A stretch of 26,915 nt of DNA. It comes from a virus. The position numbers were made by a program, and so were the translations under genes. This document shows positions 1,802 to 11,871 of the stretch, piece by piece. The notes under the pieces are model-generated. The model was not told the DNA's origin. It did not search any database and worked only from the letters and a program-made list of their open reading frames with translations. The DNA lies in IMG/VR virus record IMGVR_UViG_3300003690_002313, positions 1 through 26,915 of that record. One strand, given 5' to 3'. How positions within the stretch are numbered: the first letter of the stretch is position 1; each line of letters begins with the position of its first letter.

Positions 1802-1830
1802 AGTATAGCACCACTGATTAGTTAGGTCAA
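1802..1830 (-). promoter_or_regulatory. Sigma70-type promoter upstream of the 220-residue protein
   Basis: Minus-strand TTGACC (1830-1825), a 17-bp spacer and TATACT (1807-1802). Both hexamers match consensus at 5 of 6 positions. It fills the gap between the GroES-like stop and the next gene. The predicted start of transcription, about 7 nt past the -10, falls at about 1795, which is the A of the first ATG. Confidence 0.55.
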
Positions 1831-1834
1831 GAGA

Positions 1835-2110
1835 TTATTCAGCCAAAATCCCGATTACGTGGTTTTCTTTAATGACCGTGAAGGTCTCGCCGTTGTGTTG
1901 GACGTCGCGGAGCATGTGTGCCTCCACAACAAGCTGCAATCCGGTGCCCCAGAGGGTTCCGTTTTCGCCTGAGCAGCTGACTACTTCAACCACCGCGAAC
2001 GGGTTTTCTACTGCGCGGTAGTCCTGAGGTAACAAGATGCCGCTGTCTTCTGTGTCTGTGTCCTCTATAGCTCGTACTACGAGGTAGTTATTTACTGGTG
2101 ATAGTGTCAT
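1835..2110 (-). CDS. GroES-like co-chaperonin (Cpn10)
   Basis: The 91 residues match the Cpn10 fold. The start LSPVNNYLVVRAIE corresponds to the first GroES strand (LRPLxDRVVVR). Next is a mobile-loop segment EDTDTEDSGILLPQ (about residues 16-29), whose ILL takes the place of the GroEL-contacting IVL tripeptide. The C-terminal strands TFTVIKENHVIGILAE match the GroES end (EYLILRESDILAIVE). Cpn10 rings cap GroEL. Phage versions such as T4 gp31 replace GroES so that the host chaperonin can fold phage proteins, classically the major capsid protein. The length is close to host GroES (about 97) and shorter than gp31 (111). Its ATG overlaps the IscU stop (ATGA at 2110-2107), so it belongs to the same transcription unit as iscA-iscU. 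Confidence 0.8.
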   Translation of the reverse strand: MTLSPVNNYLVVRAIEDTDTEDSGILLPQDYRAVENPFAVVEVVSCSGENGTLWGTGLQLVVEAHMLRDVQHNGETFTVIKENHVIGILAE

Positions 2111-2481
2111 TTACTCTCCAAATCTTCTATTGCCGCCTTGATTGCCTCTTCGGCCAGCACAGAACAATGTATTTTTACAGGAGGTAAGCATAGTTCCTCC
2201 ACGATGTCTGTATTTTTTATGTCTGCGGCTTCTTTTAGGGTTTTTCCTTTAATCCACTCAGTTGCTAAGGACGATGCCGCGATCGCTGAGCCGCAGCCAA
2301 ATGTCTTAAATTTAGCATCGCAAATACATCCCTTTTCATCAATCTTAATTTGCAGTTTCATCACGTCCCCGCATTCGGGGGCGCCCACAATACCGGTTCC
2401 CACGTTTTTATCTGTTTTATCCAACGACCCTACGTTCTGGGGGTTGTCGAAATGATCTAATACTTTTTTTGAATAAGCCAT
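2107..2481 (-). CDS. iscU: Iron-sulfur cluster scaffold protein IscU
   Basis: The 124-residue protein is full length and aligns by eye with E. coli IscU almost throughout. It starts MAYSKKVLDHFDNPQNVGS and keeps all cluster ligands: Cys37 and Asp39 in APECGDVM, Cys63 in FGCGSA, and His105-Cys106. The LPPVK motif (residues 99-103), which host HscA recognises, is intact. In bacteria IscU receives sulfur from IscS and assembles [2Fe-2S] or [4Fe-4S] clusters before handing them to carriers. The phage copy would need host IscS and HscA/HscB, none of which is seen here. Start: ATG with AAAGGAAG about 8 nt upstream; 12 bp separate it from iscA. The close proteobacterial character suggests acquisition from such a host. 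Three extra cysteines (52, 54, 98) are unusual. Confidence 0.95.
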   Translation of the reverse strand: MAYSKKVLDHFDNPQNVGSLDKTDKNVGTGIVGAPECGDVMKLQIKIDEKGCICDAKFKTFGCGSAIAASSLATEWIKGKTLKEAADIKNTDIVEELCLPPVKIHCSVLAEEAIKAAIEDLESK

Positions 2482-2493
2482 AATATACTTCCT

Positions 2494-2802
2494 TTAACTA
2501 AATGATGATCCGCAGCCACACGTTGTGTTCGCACGCTTGTTGTTAAATACAAAACCTTTTTGCTGTAGGGTGGACACATAGTCAACACTTGTCTCCTGCA
2601 GGATCTCCGCACTATAAGGGTCAACATACACGATGGAGCCGGGGGTGTCAAGCAAAATATCTTCTTCGTCAAATTCGGTTTCTATATTCAGGGCATAGCT
2701 CATCCCCGAGCAGCCTCCGCCCTGGACGGCGACGCGCACCATTTCGTTCTCTTCTAGGGCACTCGCAAGTTGCTTAATAGCAGCGTCGGTAAAGGTTAAC
2801 AT
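2494..2802 (-). CDS. iscA: A-type iron-sulfur carrier protein (IscA/HesB family)
   Basis: The 102 residues carry the three invariant cysteines of A-type carriers: Cys31 in GGGCSGMSY and Cys95/Cys97 in TTCGCGSSFS near the C-terminus. The middle (DPYSAEILQETSVDY) fits the family's DxxSxxxLxGxxIDY segment. Such proteins accept clusters from IscU and deliver them to apo-proteins. Sequence alone does not separate IscA, SufA and ErpA; the symbol is chosen because iscU follows 12 bp downstream. It begins 9 bp after the reductase stop with no clear Shine-Dalgarno sequence (AT-rich leader), so it is probably translated by coupling. Context: ribonucleotide reductase, IscA, IscU and GroES form one tight unit. 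Confidence 0.9.
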   Translation of the reverse strand: MLTFTDAAIKQLASALEENEMVRVAVQGGGCSGMSYALNIETEFDEEDILLDTPGSIVYVDPYSAEILQETSVDYVSTLQQKGFVFNNKRANTTCGCGSSFS

Positions 2803-2811
2803 TTTATATAA

Positions 2812-5238
2812 CTAGCCACATTTGGCAAAACCACAGTTATTACAGGTAATGCACCCTTCCACATATACTAATCCTTCGGTCTCACACTCGCCACAAGTCT
2901 TCTCAGTAGCGGTTTGGCCGTCAGGGATATAATTCTTTAAGATTCTGGCGATACATTTGGCAAAACTAAACATATCACTATCGCGATCTTTTTGTAGTTG
3001 TTCCACCACATACTGAATGTTAGCGCCGTGGCGCAGACCAAGTGAAATCATTCGGGTAAACGCTGAGTGGTTAGGGTTATCAAAAACTTTTACAAGATCT
3101 TTGATGATTATCGTATCGCCATTCTTTCCAACTTTTAAATCATAAACCGAATTCATAGTCTTACGAGGATTCTTAACTAAAATCCCCTCTACCTTGTCAC
3201 GAGGAATTTCAATCAAGTTTGAAAGACCTCCCATCACTTCGTAAGGCTTGTCGCCCATTAGTCCCACCACAACAACCCACCTTTCTCCTTTAATAGTGGA
3301 GTGATGAATATTACATTGTAGTTCGATCGGACGTTTCGGAGCTGTATTTTGCGGAAACGTATTACTCTCTTCAGATTCTGTAATCAGAACCCCTGAGCGA
3401 GAACCCTCTACATAGACAGTCACCCCTTTAAGGCCTTGGCGCCAGGCTTCCATATAAAGATCAGCCACTACTGCAGGCTCGGTCCCCTTGGGAAGATTAA
3501 TAGTAGAGCTAATACTGTGGTCTATATTTTGTTGAATGACGGACTGTACTGCCACACGTTGTCGCCAGTCTATACTGTTCGACTCTACAAAGAATGCCGG
3601 AAGAGGCCCGGGATCTTTGAATGGGTGCCACTCCAACCACGCCTGAACGTTGTGATGATGTACAGTGTATTCTAACCACCGGTCTCCCAGCTCATCTATA
3701 TGATCTGCCTCTACATCCTGTTCATCATGCGACAGCTTGCGCCGTCGAATGTAAGAGTTTCTAAAAATGGGCTCAAGACCAGAAGAAGTCTGGGACATGA
3801 TCGACACGGAGCCCGTAGGCGCATTTGTAAGAATAGAAATATTACGACGTCCATGCTTCGCAATCATTTCCTTTAGATCGTCCGGAAGGCGCTGGATAAA
3901 CTCGTTGTTTTCCTCGATGTTCCAGTCAAATGCTGGAAAGGCGCCACGTTCTTGTGCAAGATACACGCTTTCCTCGTAGGCTGCGTCCCGTAGGGTGCGA
4001 TAGATTTTCTCAATGATTACAAGGGCTTTGGCGCTATCATATGCAAGATTTAAGCAGGCTAGCGCATCGGCCAATCCATGAGTACCTAAGCCCGTCCGGC
4101 GCCCATTAGAAGCCGCCCCATAGAGCTTAGCCCACAACTCTTTTTCGTCTTTAGTGTCAGCTACGCGGGCGATCTTATCCAACTTTTCTAGTTCAAGTTC
4201 TACCAAGTCATCAGACAATCGCATACCCACAGACGCAACTTCGCGTAACTTCCCAAAGTCAAACTCTGCATTTTTTTCAAAAGATTTTTTTACGAGACTT
4301 TTTAAATTCAAAGAAAGAAGTCTACAGGAATCGTAGGCAGAGAGAGGGATTTCCCCACACGGGTTGGTGGTCTTCGTCTTAAACCCGGGGTATGCATGGG
4401 CGGGAAGATTCTTAGTAATGTTGTCCCACATAAGAAGTCCAGGCTCGGCAGTCTTGGTGGCCGACTCAATAATGGTACCCCACAAGGTCGCGGCATCTAC
4501 CTCAGCTGTGTACTCAGGTTCGTCAGCATCTACCGGAAACTGCAAAGTAAACGTTTCGTTATTTTCCACGGCTTTCATAAAGCTATCGCTTATCTTAACC
4601 GAAACATTTGCACCGGTTACCTTAGTAAGGTTGTGTTTCATCTTAACAAATTGTTCAACGTCAGGGTGGCGAATATCCATTGAAATCATCAATGCTCCGC
4701 GGCGGCCGTTCTGACCAATCATTCGACAAACATACGAGTAAAAATCAGCGAAAGACCAGGCACCAGTAGTAGAACGAGCAGAATTATTAACAGCGGCCCC
4801 CTCGGGACGAAGGCAAGAGATATCAAGCCCAACACCACAGCGACGCTTGAACAAATTAGCAAGGTCTTTGCCGGCATCCATAATAGACGAAACATTGTCC
4901 TGCGGATTGTCGACAACCACACAGTTAGACAGGGATACATTAACATAATCATTTCCTATTCCCATCATAGGTGAACCTTGTGGAACAATATATTTAAAAT
5001 TTTTGAGGAAAGAATATATCTCTGCCTCAGTCAAATGATTAGACTTTCGTGTAATAAACTTATCTTCCATGCGCGCGAACTCTGTGGCCATACGCTTATG
5101 CATCGCGTCAGGAGTCTTCTCCATAAAATTGCCCTTCTTATCGCGCAGGCAATACTTAGTCATAAAAACGTTTGTTGCTAACTCGTCGCCATTAAAATAT
5201 TCAAGAGTGGCCTCTCGCACTTCACTTTCCTCAAACAT
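2812..5238 (-). CDS. nrdJ: Adenosylcobalamin-dependent (class II) ribonucleotide reductase
   Basis: The 808-residue protein reduces ribonucleotides to deoxyribonucleotides using a B12-derived thiyl radical. Visible landmarks: Cys106 in SLSNC (redox cysteine), the GVGLDIS and STTGAWSFADFY region (residues 136-166), TNPCGEIPLS with the radical Cys294 and Glu296, Cys305 (second redox cysteine), NAPTGSVSIM (472-481), and GLKGVTVYVEGSRSG (603-617). The C-terminus holds a TSCPD-like region and a cysteine cluster (CGEC, CITCNNC, KCG) typical of long class II enzymes, where it relays electrons or binds zinc. No small (NrdB-type) subunit is present, consistent with class II. Start: ATG with GGAGG 7 nt upstream, overlapping the helicase end. 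The phage relies on host cobalamin. Confidence 0.95.
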   Translation of the reverse strand: MFEESEVREATLEYFNGDELATNVFMTKYCLRDKKGNFMEKTPDAMHKRMATEFARMEDKFITRKSNHLTEAEIYSFLKNFKYIVPQGSPMMGIGNDYVNVSLSNCVVVDNPQDNVSSIMDAGKDLANLFKRRCGVGLDISCLRPEGAAVNNSARSTTGAWSFADFYSYVCRMIGQNGRRGALMISMDIRHPDVEQFVKMKHNLTKVTGANVSVKISDSFMKAVENNETFTLQFPVDADEPEYTAEVDAATLWGTIIESATKTAEPGLLMWDNITKNLPAHAYPGFKTKTTNPCGEIPLSAYDSCRLLSLNLKSLVKKSFEKNAEFDFGKLREVASVGMRLSDDLVELELEKLDKIARVADTKDEKELWAKLYGAASNGRRTGLGTHGLADALACLNLAYDSAKALVIIEKIYRTLRDAAYEESVYLAQERGAFPAFDWNIEENNEFIQRLPDDLKEMIAKHGRRNISILTNAPTGSVSIMSQTSSGLEPIFRNSYIRRRKLSHDEQDVEADHIDELGDRWLEYTVHHHNVQAWLEWHPFKDPGPLPAFFVESNSIDWRQRVAVQSVIQQNIDHSISSTINLPKGTEPAVVADLYMEAWRQGLKGVTVYVEGSRSGVLITESEESNTFPQNTAPKRPIELQCNIHHSTIKGERWVVVVGLMGDKPYEVMGGLSNLIEIPRDKVEGILVKNPRKTMNSVYDLKVGKNGDTIIIKDLVKVFDNPNHSAFTRMISLGLRHGANIQYVVEQLQKDRDSDMFSFAKCIARILKNYIPDGQTATEKTCGECETEGLVYVEGCITCNNCGFAKCG

Positions 5239-5241
5239 AGT

Positions 5242-6621
5242 CTAGCCTCCATTGTTCTTTTTAAACTTTTTGTACTTCTCAACCAAATTTTCTTTTTGTT
5301 TCTTAACGCTAACCTCTGCAAGTACGTCTTCTGATGATGGGTCAAGGACCTTAATATAAACATTTGATGTGTCCATGAAAAGAGGGTAGATAAGACCGTC
5401 GGGTCCATTACGATTTTTAGCAATGAACAGCCGGCCGCCATTTGTAGCCTTATCCTCTACTGTTCGGGAAATACTAAAAATAAAGTCTGCCACAAAGCAC
5501 TTATTAAATGCTTCGGAGATTGATTCCATCGTAATAACTTCGGCATTTAACCCGGATCTGTTAGTCTGTGATGCTGTCCACACTGGGCATTTATACTCTG
5601 ATGCGATGGCACGCAGTTCTTCGTAAATAGACTCCAGCTCGTTTCTTTTCTCCTTAAGATATCGCACCGGACGTAATAAATCTCCATAGTCAATAATAAT
5701 CAGATCTACATTGACATTACGCATGCGCAACTTTTCTAAATGATTGCGCACAGTTTGTGTGGAAGCGGTCTTAGTGGGGTATTCTTTAATAATAAGTTTT
5801 CCCTGGATATCTTGAACTTCTTCGTAAATCTTTTCTTTAAAAGAGATAAGACTCGACAAAGGAATCTTAGTGAGACACGAATCATAACGTGAGGCTACCA
5901 CCATATCTTGTAATTCCAAAGTATAGTGAACGACAGTCTTCCCTTCTCTAAGCGCTTGGGTACCTAAATGAACCAGCGCCATCGACTTGCCGGCGCCGGT
6001 CGGAGCGATAACAACGCCCAACTCTTTTTGTCCCAGTCCTCCCTTACAAATGTCATCGATAAGGTCCCACCCAGTGCTGGACGGGTTGCGAAAGCGTGGC
6101 TTAAATCTCTCTTCGAAATCCTTCTTGTAGTCATAGCCCTCGTCGTTGTCCATCCCTAACTTAAGTGAATCATTAATCACCTGAGAGATTTCGTCGAAGG
6201 ATGAGTTCTGAAGGAGCCCTATAGACTTGACCATCGCCGACTTAAGGTTCTGCTTTTTGCAAAAATCTAATGCGGTGTCCTTGATATATTCAACATCGCT
6301 GACCGCGGTCACCTGACTCCTCACATAGTACTCTCGTACTTGTTTAGAGGTCAGTTCGTTCTCATTATCTAACTCTGACCTAAGGATGGTCTTCATAATA
6401 TCTCGGGAAGGGTGAACCTCGTACTTCTTGCGATAATCAAATACCTTATTTAAGAAGCACTTGAGATAATTCAACTCCAAAAAGTTTACATCTAGTACCT
6501 CCTCAATCTGATCAGCAAAAGTGCGATCGTCTAAGATCAACATACATAACTTTTCCTGAAAAGACTTCCCGTATTTTGAAAAGTTTACAGGCTCACTGTT
6601 GAATTTCATAGCTTCTTTCAT
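5242..6621 (-). CDS. Replicative DNA helicase (DnaB / T4 gp41 type)
   Basis: The 459 residues have an N-terminal helical domain (about 1-180) and a RecA-like motor. The Walker A loop is APTGAGKS (206-213), the Walker B region is DLIIIDYGDLL (306-316), and the sensor segment TASQTNRSG (349-357) matches the DnaB SQLNR motif. A hexameric 5'-3' helicase that unwinds the fork is expected. No primase or loader is recognisable in the window. No Shine-Dalgarno sequence precedes the ATG. A promoter-like sequence in the end of the upstream nuclease gene (6631-6659) would leave a leader of only a few nucleotides. The ribonucleotide reductase follows after 3 bp, so the two are co-transcribed. Confidence 0.92.
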   Translation of the reverse strand: MKEAMKFNSEPVNFSKYGKSFQEKLCMLILDDRTFADQIEEVLDVNFLELNYLKCFLNKVFDYRKKYEVHPSRDIMKTILRSELDNENELTSKQVREYYVRSQVTAVSDVEYIKDTALDFCKKQNLKSAMVKSIGLLQNSSFDEISQVINDSLKLGMDNDEGYDYKKDFEERFKPRFRNPSSTGWDLIDDICKGGLGQKELGVVIAPTGAGKSMALVHLGTQALREGKTVVHYTLELQDMVVASRYDSCLTKIPLSSLISFKEKIYEEVQDIQGKLIIKEYPTKTASTQTVRNHLEKLRMRNVNVDLIIIDYGDLLRPVRYLKEKRNELESIYEELRAIASEYKCPVWTASQTNRSGLNAEVITMESISEAFNKCFVADFIFSISRTVEDKATNGGRLFIAKNRNGPDGLIYPLFMDTSNVYIKVLDPSSEDVLAEVSVKKQKENLVEKYKKFKKNNGG

Positions 6622-11013: not shown

Positions 11014-11871
11014 TCAGCCAATATCCTGATCGTCTAGTAATTCTTTATATGATTGTACCACAGATGAATACTTAATGCAATAACAATATTTTTGTTCATA
11101 GGTGGTTTTAAAGACTCCGTATGAAATATTAATATTTTTCTCTATCTTTGACTTCACGAAATTATTAATCTTCCTAAACAAAGTACCATCATTCTTTAAG
11201 TCATCTTCGTTGATACCATAGTAGTATACCACCTCACGAGGGAATGTCAAGTCATAAAACCATTTTTCTTCAGCATCCTCCTCTTCTAAGTCCAGGATCC
11301 CAATTGTCGCTATTCGACTGAGGGATGATGGGTCCACAAAACTCCCGATGACCGGCTCTGTGTTCCGAAAAATATTTAGCATGTGGATGGTATTCACAAT
11401 GCCTTGATTAAGAGTGTCGTAATATCCAATGATAGATATCTCACCAATGCTCTTCTCTAACAACGTGTTATCGACTAGCCAAATTGCTTCAATGAGACCA
11501 GATCGAGCATACTCTTGCAAAACATTCCTTACAATCTTTTCTTGCATTTTTTGAACCTCACTGGCCAACGCCAAATCCGGCTGGATGTACACCACAGTTA
11601 TCTCATTCTCTTTGATCTGTTCTAGAAGCCTCAAAATACCTCCCGATATCTGACCGCTCCCCGCTACAACAACATAAACCTCTTCGTTTGAAAACTTGAG
11701 CTTTCTTTTTAGATTGGGGAAATGAGTGTCATAATCTTCATGATTCTTTCTTTTCTTAATCGTGATGTCAGCCTCTTTAACAGTGTCAATAGTATAAGTT
11801 TCATACTGAGGAAACTTTGAAAATCCCCTTGCCACATTCGAACCGGCTTTTCCAAGACCCACAATTATCAC
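11014..11871 (-). CDS. Divergent FtsZ/tubulin-superfamily protein
   Basis: The 285 residues follow the FtsZ nucleotide-binding domain in order. MIIVGLGKAGSNVARGF (1-17) resembles the first strand and G-rich loop (VIGVGGGGGNAV), with IDT near 28-30. VVVAGSGQISGGILRLLEQI (67-86) occupies the place of the tubulin signature GGGTGSG. VQKMQEKIVRNVLQEYARSG plus IWLVDN resembles FtsZ's RRxxxAxxGIxxL...VIPND. YYDTLNQGIVNTI (150-162) matches the FRAADEVLxQGVxGI helix. The synergy-loop position reads GSFVDPSSL, so the usual NxDxxD/E is degenerate. Known phage relatives (PhuZ) form filaments that position phage DNA. Here polymerisation and GTPase activity are uncertain. GTG start overlapping the MazG stop (GTGA). 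Confidence 0.6.
   Translation of the reverse strand: MIIVGLGKAGSNVARGFSKFPQYETYTIDTVKEADITIKKRKNHEDYDTHFPNLKRKLKFSNEEVYVVVAGSGQISGGILRLLEQIKENEITVVYIQPDLALASEVQKMQEKIVRNVLQEYARSGLIEAIWLVDNTLLEKSIGEISIIGYYDTLNQGIVNTIHMLNIFRNTEPVIGSFVDPSSLSRIATIGILDLEEEDAEEKWFYDLTFPREVVYYYGINEDDLKNDGTLFRKINNFVKSKIEKNINISYGVFKTTYEQKYCYCIKYSSVVQSYKELLDDQDIG
11223..11250 (-). promoter_or_regulatory. Internal sigma70-type promoter in the FtsZ-like gene
   Basis: Minus-strand TTGACA (11250-11245), a 16-bp spacer and TATACT (11228-11223). It lies in coding sequence. The predicted start, about 11216, is some 235 nt ahead of the ssDNA-binding protein gene, which it could drive. Confidence 0.5.

Follow-up and report, generated by a model that had tools for sequence, protein, structure and literature searches.

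The window analysed here is the whole 26,915-base IMG/VR virus record IMGVR_UViG_3300003690_002313. The minus strand carries its recognisable long genes, and among them is a compact run in which two genes of iron-sulfur (Fe-S) cluster assembly stand between a ribonucleotide reductase (RNR) gene and a gene for a GroES-like protein. In the order of transcription these are nrdJ, for a class II (adenosylcobalamin-dependent) RNR (2812-5238), an A-type Fe-S carrier gene (2494-2802), iscU (2107-2481) and the groES-like gene (1835-2110); nrdJ and the carrier are 9 bp apart, the carrier and iscU 12 bp, and iscU and the groES-like gene overlap by 4 bp. All four open reading frames stand at the coordinates and on the strand given in a first-pass annotation made from the sequence alone, and its 12-bp gap between carrier and IscU checks out. 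Comparison with related viral loci shows that the place between nrdJ and groES takes up replaceable inserts, of which carrier and IscU are two independent ones.

Two Fe-S genes and the genes that frame them

IscU proteins have three cysteine ligands, an aspartate and a histidine, and LPPVK is their chaperone-binding motif. The window protein lies above the TIGR01999 iscU equivalog cut-off (213.4 bits versus 192.4), matches PF01592 (expectation value, E, 2.4e-51) and phrog_8429, named "NifU-like Fe-S cluster assembly protein" (E 4.4e-38), and corresponds over almost its full length to solved ISCU/IscU structures. A scan of viral sequences with IscU kept the best 80 of 96 loci; when 15 proteins picked from these were aligned with that of the window, C37, D39, C63, H105 and C106 as well as LPPVK (residues 99-103) were invariant in all 16, which bears out the earlier description of a complete IscU with all ligands and the chaperone motif. 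The protein thus looks functional, with a predicted role in [2Fe-2S] assembly or transfer. Phage IscU is under strong purifying selection: the ratio of nonsynonymous to synonymous substitution rates (dN/dS) has a median of 0.057 and a maximum of 0.10 in 35 moderately diverged pairs, the medians for the carrier (8 pairs) and GroES (197 pairs) being 0.22 and 0.092. A ratio near 0.06 together with the intact ligand set means that IscU is used.

The carrier exceeds the cut-offs of the family PF01521 (E 1.2e-20; 74.2 versus 26.3) and the subfamily TIGR00049 (99.6 versus 58.8) and keeps the CSG and CGCG cysteines, but it falls below the equivalog cut-offs for IscA (TIGR02011; 72 versus 150.6), ErpA (89.8 versus 117) and SufA (87.4 versus 136.2). 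It is a generic A-type carrier, and the earlier label IscA is too specific. Its PHROG match, phrog_17776 (E 9.1e-25), is a family with no function assigned in PHROGs. A scan of viral sequences with the carrier as query gave one locus, and in L030 and L032 the carrier, or its junction with IscU, looks damaged.

The upstream border gene, nrdJ, scores above the TIGR02504 NrdJ_Z equivalog cut-off (481.4 versus 399.95). The last 27 residues of its product hold six cysteines as CxxC...CxxCxxC...C, with spacers of 2-10-2-2-4; the residue numbers of the cysteine-rich class II RNR domain in PMC5704485 give 2-9-2-2-5. According to that paper, the six-cysteine C-terminal domain binds zinc and relays electrons, and neither the thioredoxins nor the glutaredoxin of the same organism reduced a class II RNR that carries it, the donor still to be identified. 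Given these published zinc data, the cysteine-rich tail is thought unlikely to be an Fe-S site. The first-pass view that the client of the Fe-S genes must be something other than the class II reductase is supported accordingly, the domain being of the zinc/redox type (PMC5704485).

At the other border, the GroES-like protein is weak by sequence: it sits exactly at the PF00166 (Cpn10) cut-off of 21.1, reaches no GroES equivalog (best 24.2 versus 96) and matches phrog_3188. Its predicted structure (pLDDT 75.6) matches the Cpn10/gp31 fold, the top Foldseek matches being Cpn10 proteins and T4 gp31 coming at rank 14 (E 3.2e-3). Within the ILLP loop motif, L26-L27-P28 is nearly or fully invariant among 29 aligned relatives.

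That these borders are stable can be seen from a scan of viral sequences with nrdJ, from which the best 80 of 140 loci were kept (the nrdJ-query loci). The DnaB-like replicative helicase gene found upstream of nrdJ in the window (5242-6621, minus strand; PF03796, phrog_19) is upstream of nrdJ in all 80, and GroES was seen in 45 of the 47 distinct loci that extend 1300 bases or more downstream, the remaining two showing a weak GroES match. Helicase, nrdJ and GroES are a near-constant frame.

Gain, loss and lineage of the inserts

The nrdJ-query loci, once 10 duplicates and 9 unresolved cases are set aside, leave 61 in which the content of the slot can be read: 39 lack both Fe-S genes, 7 have the carrier without IscU, 8 have IscU without the carrier and 7 have the two together. 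In two of the unresolved nine (L181 and L182) GroES is matched weakly and Fe-S genes are absent. A wider set, in which loci with identical 3' ends count once, has 83 distinct nrdJ loci: the window, 77 other resolved loci and 5 unresolved ones; the 77, enriched in IscU through the IscU scan, divide into 41 with neither gene, 17 with IscU, 12 with both and 7 with the carrier. Placed on an nrdJ tree, the presence of IscU (29 of 77 rows) takes at least 12 changes, where shuffling gives a mean of 23.5 and none of 200 shuffles is as low, and that of the carrier (20 of 77) at least 14, where the shuffled mean is 17.7 and 3 of 200 are as low. For the nrdJ-query rows and the window alone (62 rows), the figures are at least 11 for IscU (16/62) and at least 12 for the carrier (15/62); the tree was built quickly, and all of these counts may be inflated by recombination close to the nrdJ 3' end. 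They imply that inheritance accounts for part of the distribution of IscU, with frequent gain or loss besides, and that the carrier is nearly scattered. The proposal of a four-gene "protein maturation" cassette is therefore not supported, since nrdJ and GroES persist without the Fe-S genes in most resolved loci and the carrier and IscU are gained and lost independently of each other.

Other genes occupy the same slot elsewhere, namely HNH genes (Pfam HNH_3 in L127 and HNH in L138, with L129 resembling L127 by eye) and, in L009, a gene for a 270-residue zinc-ribbon-like protein with no Pfam match. As a separate observation, the slot that follows GroES in further members (L172, L179-L189 and L190) holds a thioredoxin-like, nucleotidyltransferase-like or thyX-like gene, as judged by eye.

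An nrdJ 72-88% identical to that of the window adjoins IscU in 28 of the 80 viral IscU loci, with or without a carrier between them, and this recurrence shows that the arrangement is not due to chance; helicase and GroES flank 23 of the 28, and the other five miss one of these. In an IscU tree of 139 rows the window sequence belongs to a clade of 24 rows, all of them from phages (support 98/93), and a second phage group, of 27 rows (92/86), lies next to it; with 130 columns for 139 rows and a bootstrap that has not settled, the deeper forks of this tree are not firm, and two window copies, L016, L032 and near-identical rows are excluded from it. The phylogeny of IscU against bacterial and viral sequences, proposed as a check in the first-pass annotation, thus places the window gene among phage genes. 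The best bacterial IscU among the matches listed in a species-genome scan with two short patterns is 78% identical; the best 80 matches listed come from several phyla, and with so mixed a set and a top identity of 78% among them no host is inferred. No recent host donor of IscU was seen among the matches listed in that scan. The G+C content of the four-gene region (0.446-0.460) is like that of its neighbours. A host-phage chimera, the condition under which the earlier reading was to fail, is rejected on these three counts: the nrdJ neighbour shared by 28 of 80 viral loci, the neighbour-like G+C content and the phage-only clade.

How the insert moves may be glimpsed in one locus. In L016 nrdJ is followed by the carrier and then by IscU, whose frame stays open and passes into a repeat of the 23 C-terminal residues of NrdJ; this second copy is diverged, its DNA differing from that of the first, and beyond it lies sequence that matches, by eye, the HNH gene directly behind nrdJ in L138. 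A donor segment that carried both genes and replaced the nrdJ 3' end would leave such a trace, although an assembly error in this short contig could also have produced it. Phage IscU of this lineage also occurs at a second kind of place: L015, L017, L018 and L019 have the same kind of carrier-IscU pair (67-68% and 85-86% identical, respectively) in other surroundings, beside radical-SAM genes, and in L018 and L019 a 4Fe-4S ferredoxin adjoins the pair as well. These four loci probably represent two lineages, since two pairs of them look nearly identical. The contig that holds L018 (G008) shares tail genes with the window's phage family, nrdJ falling outside that contig.

Candidate clients and competing explanations

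No IscS-family match was found in any of the 16 contigs searched, so the sulfur is probably supplied by the host. The best candidate for a phage client lies outside the window. Of 14 records searched for a PD-(D/E)XK nuclease, 9 have one, among them G016, G017, G011 and G018 as well as G006 and G008. A further search with the nuclease added G027, so that the five longest family contigs examined (G016, G017, G011, G018 and G027) all carry it, and PF12705 (PDDEXK_1) is assigned in two of the proteins. Its predicted fold is best matched by the Cas4-family ACE1, AdnAB, a putative exonuclease and SSO0001, with AddAB in the top 15; a search of PDB by sequence gave no meaningful match. Four cysteines, one N-terminal (C19) and three C-terminal (C245, C251 and C259), are invariant in 30 aligned proteins of the 80 found. 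The spacing of the three is mostly C-x5-C-x7-C and in some proteins C-x2-C-x7-C; in Cas4 and AddB it is C-x2-C-x5-C. It is this combination of fold and invariant cysteines that makes a Cas4/AddB-type nuclease, with a putative [4Fe-4S]-type four-cysteine signature, the best-supported phage client. Radical-SAM genes occur in 4 of 15 records, all four with the carrier-IscU pair in other surroundings, and in none of 11 further records; as a general client they are rejected for the nrdJ-type contigs, none of 11 searched having them. Ferredoxin is likewise rejected as a constant partner, its domain having been found in 2 of 19 contigs, both of which bear IscU and carrier (G008 and G018), and not in other IscU-bearing contigs of that search such as G011; L029 and L047, in which a ferredoxin adjoins IscU, were not among the 19.

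Expression of the cargo probably starts from a promoter further upstream. A sigma-70-like site stands just upstream of g2, the gene behind groES, in 21 of 30 distinct sequences including the window, where it reads TTGACC-17-TATACT with a TG (1802-1830, minus strand). Such a site precedes IscU in 0 of 68 sequences, GroES in 0 of 56, nrdJ in 0 of 65 and the carrier in 1 of 41; the window scan also gives a 10-of-12 match near the beginning of the carrier gene (2828-2801), and the scanned region as a whole yields 27 sigma-70-like matches where 19.7 are expected by chance. The T4-type late promoter TATAAATA gave one match, which is at chance level. The promoter at 1802-1830 probably marks the downstream end of the transcription unit that bears the cargo, and the gene order, with no recurrent promoter before IscU or GroES, suggests that transcription of the replication and nucleotide genes runs on into the cargo.

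The reading we prefer, with a probability of roughly 0.6, is that this T4-like phage carries accessory Fe-S cargo in the slot between nrdJ and groES and that the Cas4/AddB-type nuclease is its most likely client. Carrier and IscU would be transcribed from an upstream promoter together with the replication and nucleotide genes; host IscS would load the phage IscU with sulfur, and IscU would build clusters when host supply or turnover becomes limiting. These would then pass, by way of the phage or the host A-type carrier, to apo-proteins, of which the main one of phage origin would be the nuclease, joined in some members by radical-SAM enzymes and ferredoxin. Several observations weigh against this proposal. 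No Fe-S client was recognised in the window, and the records, all linear, may be fragments. The nuclease was not found in the shorter fragment contigs G003, G013, G015, G019 and G020, and its predicted structure falls below a pLDDT of 50 at residues 19-33 and 239-260, the stretches that hold all four cysteines, so that the putative cluster site is argued from sequence. Radical-SAM genes were found in 0 of 11 nrdJ-IscU-type contigs, and ferredoxin is as rare as described above. Two contigs, G017 and G027, carry the nuclease, and neither IscU nor the carrier was found in either; the insert would accordingly boost the nuclease and not be required by it. The question of the client, which the first-pass annotation had posed and had directed to the rest of the genome, is thereby answered in part: the long family contigs do contain a four-cysteine nuclease, and that nuclease does not need the cargo.

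The same optional relation between cargo and nuclease, and the lack of radical SAM in nrdJ-type contigs, fit a different view, in which the cargo acts chiefly on behalf of Fe-S enzymes of the host (respiration, ferredoxins, Fe-S repair) and sustains energy and redox metabolism during infection as a classic auxiliary metabolic gene; a paper on viromes of an oxygen-minimum zone (PMC8940887) proposes help against oxidative or redox stress. We regard this as unlikely, although a good deal less so than the explanations that follow, and it gives no reason for one sub-lineage to have the pair next to radical-SAM genes, or for L018, L029 and L047 to have it close to a ferredoxin. The RNR itself could be the beneficiary if the cargo matured a ferredoxin that reduces the cysteine-rich C-terminal domain of NrdJ. 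Besides the 28 loci of the window's family in which the two genes adjoin, RNRs only 26-31% identical also neighbour IscU in five others: in L047, L064, L065 and L066 an RNR 28-31% identical to that of the window is followed by IscU, the order in L047 being RNR, ferredoxin, IscU, carrier, and in L061 IscU follows an RNR with a glutaredoxin-like tail, class I-like by eye. The failure of thioredoxins and glutaredoxin to reduce the cysteine-rich enzyme (PMC5704485) points the same way. The 39 of 61 resolved nrdJ-query loci without an Fe-S gene and the presence of ferredoxin in 2 of 19 contigs speak against it, and adjacency may reflect no more than the position of nrdJ at the border of an insertion slot that HNH genes also use; we consider the idea improbable. 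Its broader form, in which recurrent RNR-IscU linkage is functional because the cargo matures a phage or host ferredoxin that is the electron donor of cysteine-rich class II RNRs, is slightly more doubtful still; if true, the linkage would constitute a phage-made reductase-plus-reductant module. Least probable of all is that the pair is near-neutral cargo, hitchhiking with little effect on fitness and moved by homing endonucleases and by recombination at the nrdJ 3' end. Frequent gain and loss, the HNH genes in the slot (L127 and L138), the recombination scar of L016 and the damaged-looking copies in L030 and L032 agree with such a history, whereas the dN/dS of about 0.06 and the intact ligands of IscU mean use.

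Surroundings of the slot and its place in phage biology

The transcription order of the window runs from tail sheath, tail tube, tape-measure-like, baseplate-like, DNA polymerase, MazG-like and single-stranded DNA-binding protein genes through UvsX, dCMP deaminase, 5'-3' exonuclease and the DnaB-like helicase to nrdJ, the carrier, iscU, the groES-like gene, g2 and g1; the names tape-measure, baseplate and MazG are our own reading of the sequence. On the minus strand behind groES, g2 (1133-1795) and g1 (292-1140) have no Pfam or PHROG match. The pair trails GroES in most relatives, a promoter-like site preceding it in many; of the 35 distinct nrdJ-query loci that extend 3000 bases or more downstream, 34 have g1. 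Downstream of GroES in L028 two g2-like stretches, 78% and 48% identical to g2 of the window, stand in tandem; this doubling suggests another recombination scar.

A second hypervariable slot lies between GroES and g2 (L127, L135, L140, L150, L155 and others) and is seen elsewhere in G016, G017 and G018. Its proteins are unrelated yet share short N-termini such as MKLIMENWRKFLKEE or MKLTKARLRQIIKEEI, which resemble the capsid-targeting sequences of T4 internal head proteins; by this analogy the proteins may be packaged and injected. The N-terminal motif was counted in 7 of 226 open reading frames of G017, 5 of 219 of G016, 3 of 165 of G018, 2 of 77 of G003 and one each in G015, G008 and G011; the same motif in control windows elsewhere gave 0/986, 3/1056, 2/821, 5/602, 2/660, 1/705 and 5/912, and there was no excess in G011. 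That contig, a 170-kb relative, has a transaldolase-like gene, of talC type by eye, at 147188-147856. At 11014-11871 on the minus strand the window encodes a 285-residue protein, also present in relatives, that begins with a glycine-rich, nucleotide-binding-like segment and has a VVVAGSGQISGG stretch; it is FtsZ/tubulin-like by eye, with a sub-threshold TrkA_N match as its sole Pfam result and no PHROG match.

The kind of cargo described here is already known. Nishimura et al. 2017 (PMC5332604) report 16 T4-like marine viral genomes with such genes, 14 with an A-type carrier and 6 with IscU, missing from many close relatives and accompanied in some by genes for radical-SAM enzymes, Cas4 and further Fe-S proteins; clients of both viral and host origin are proposed there. 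Those genomes are like the window in being T4-like and in having IscU and/or an A-type carrier. What the first-pass annotation called unusual phage cargo is therefore not without precedent in print. The section of that paper on Fe-S genes is silent on the nrdJ-groES slot, on separate gain and loss within one slot, on an insertion scar and on a phage-only IscU clade, and it places its six viral IscUs with gammaproteobacterial ones, whereas the window IscU falls in a phage-only clade. HMO-2011-type phages (PMC9038755) likewise carry iscU and an A-type carrier gene (erpA) but are of a different type from the phage of the window; virome papers list such Fe-S assembly genes, and the main text of PMC9531940 has no IscU. 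No description of the slot was found in openly accessible literature on phage iscU, Fe-S assembly, RNR and GroES, as represented by excerpts.

Among collected families, IscU and carrier of the window correspond to phrog_8429 and phrog_17776, and the window member of the latter is an A-type carrier by Pfam and NCBIfam. With the bacterial isc operon the phage locus shares an IscU equivalog and the proximity of IscU and carrier; it differs in the order, carrier then IscU, in a carrier that is not an IscA equivalog and in the lack of an IscS-family match in the 16 contigs searched. IscR, HscBA and Fdx, the products of other bacterial isc operon genes, are not among the annotated window neighbours. 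The GroES-like protein shares with T4 gp31 and GroES the predicted Cpn10 fold and L-L-P of the loop motif, but lies below all GroES equivalog cut-offs and is 12% identical to gp31 in a structural alignment. Separately, unannotated "phage" collection records (H4, H9, H11-H16, H21 and H26-H28) carry IscU/SufU or A-type carrier genes; their host names are Salmonella, Listeria, Staphylococcus, Enterococcus or Escherichia, and they may be host DNA filed as phage.

Slot, scar and phage IscU lineage are the detail added to this picture. What had been an entry for iscU in lists of virome genes becomes a defined unit: in a family of T4-like phages, an Fe-S insert that is dispensable yet constrained and whose border is fixed. 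The family offers natural pairs with and without the insert together with a concrete candidate for its phage client. The findings also suggest that IscU can be maintained among viruses as a separate lineage, which may occupy more than one site within a single phage family, as opposed to being freshly acquired from hosts.

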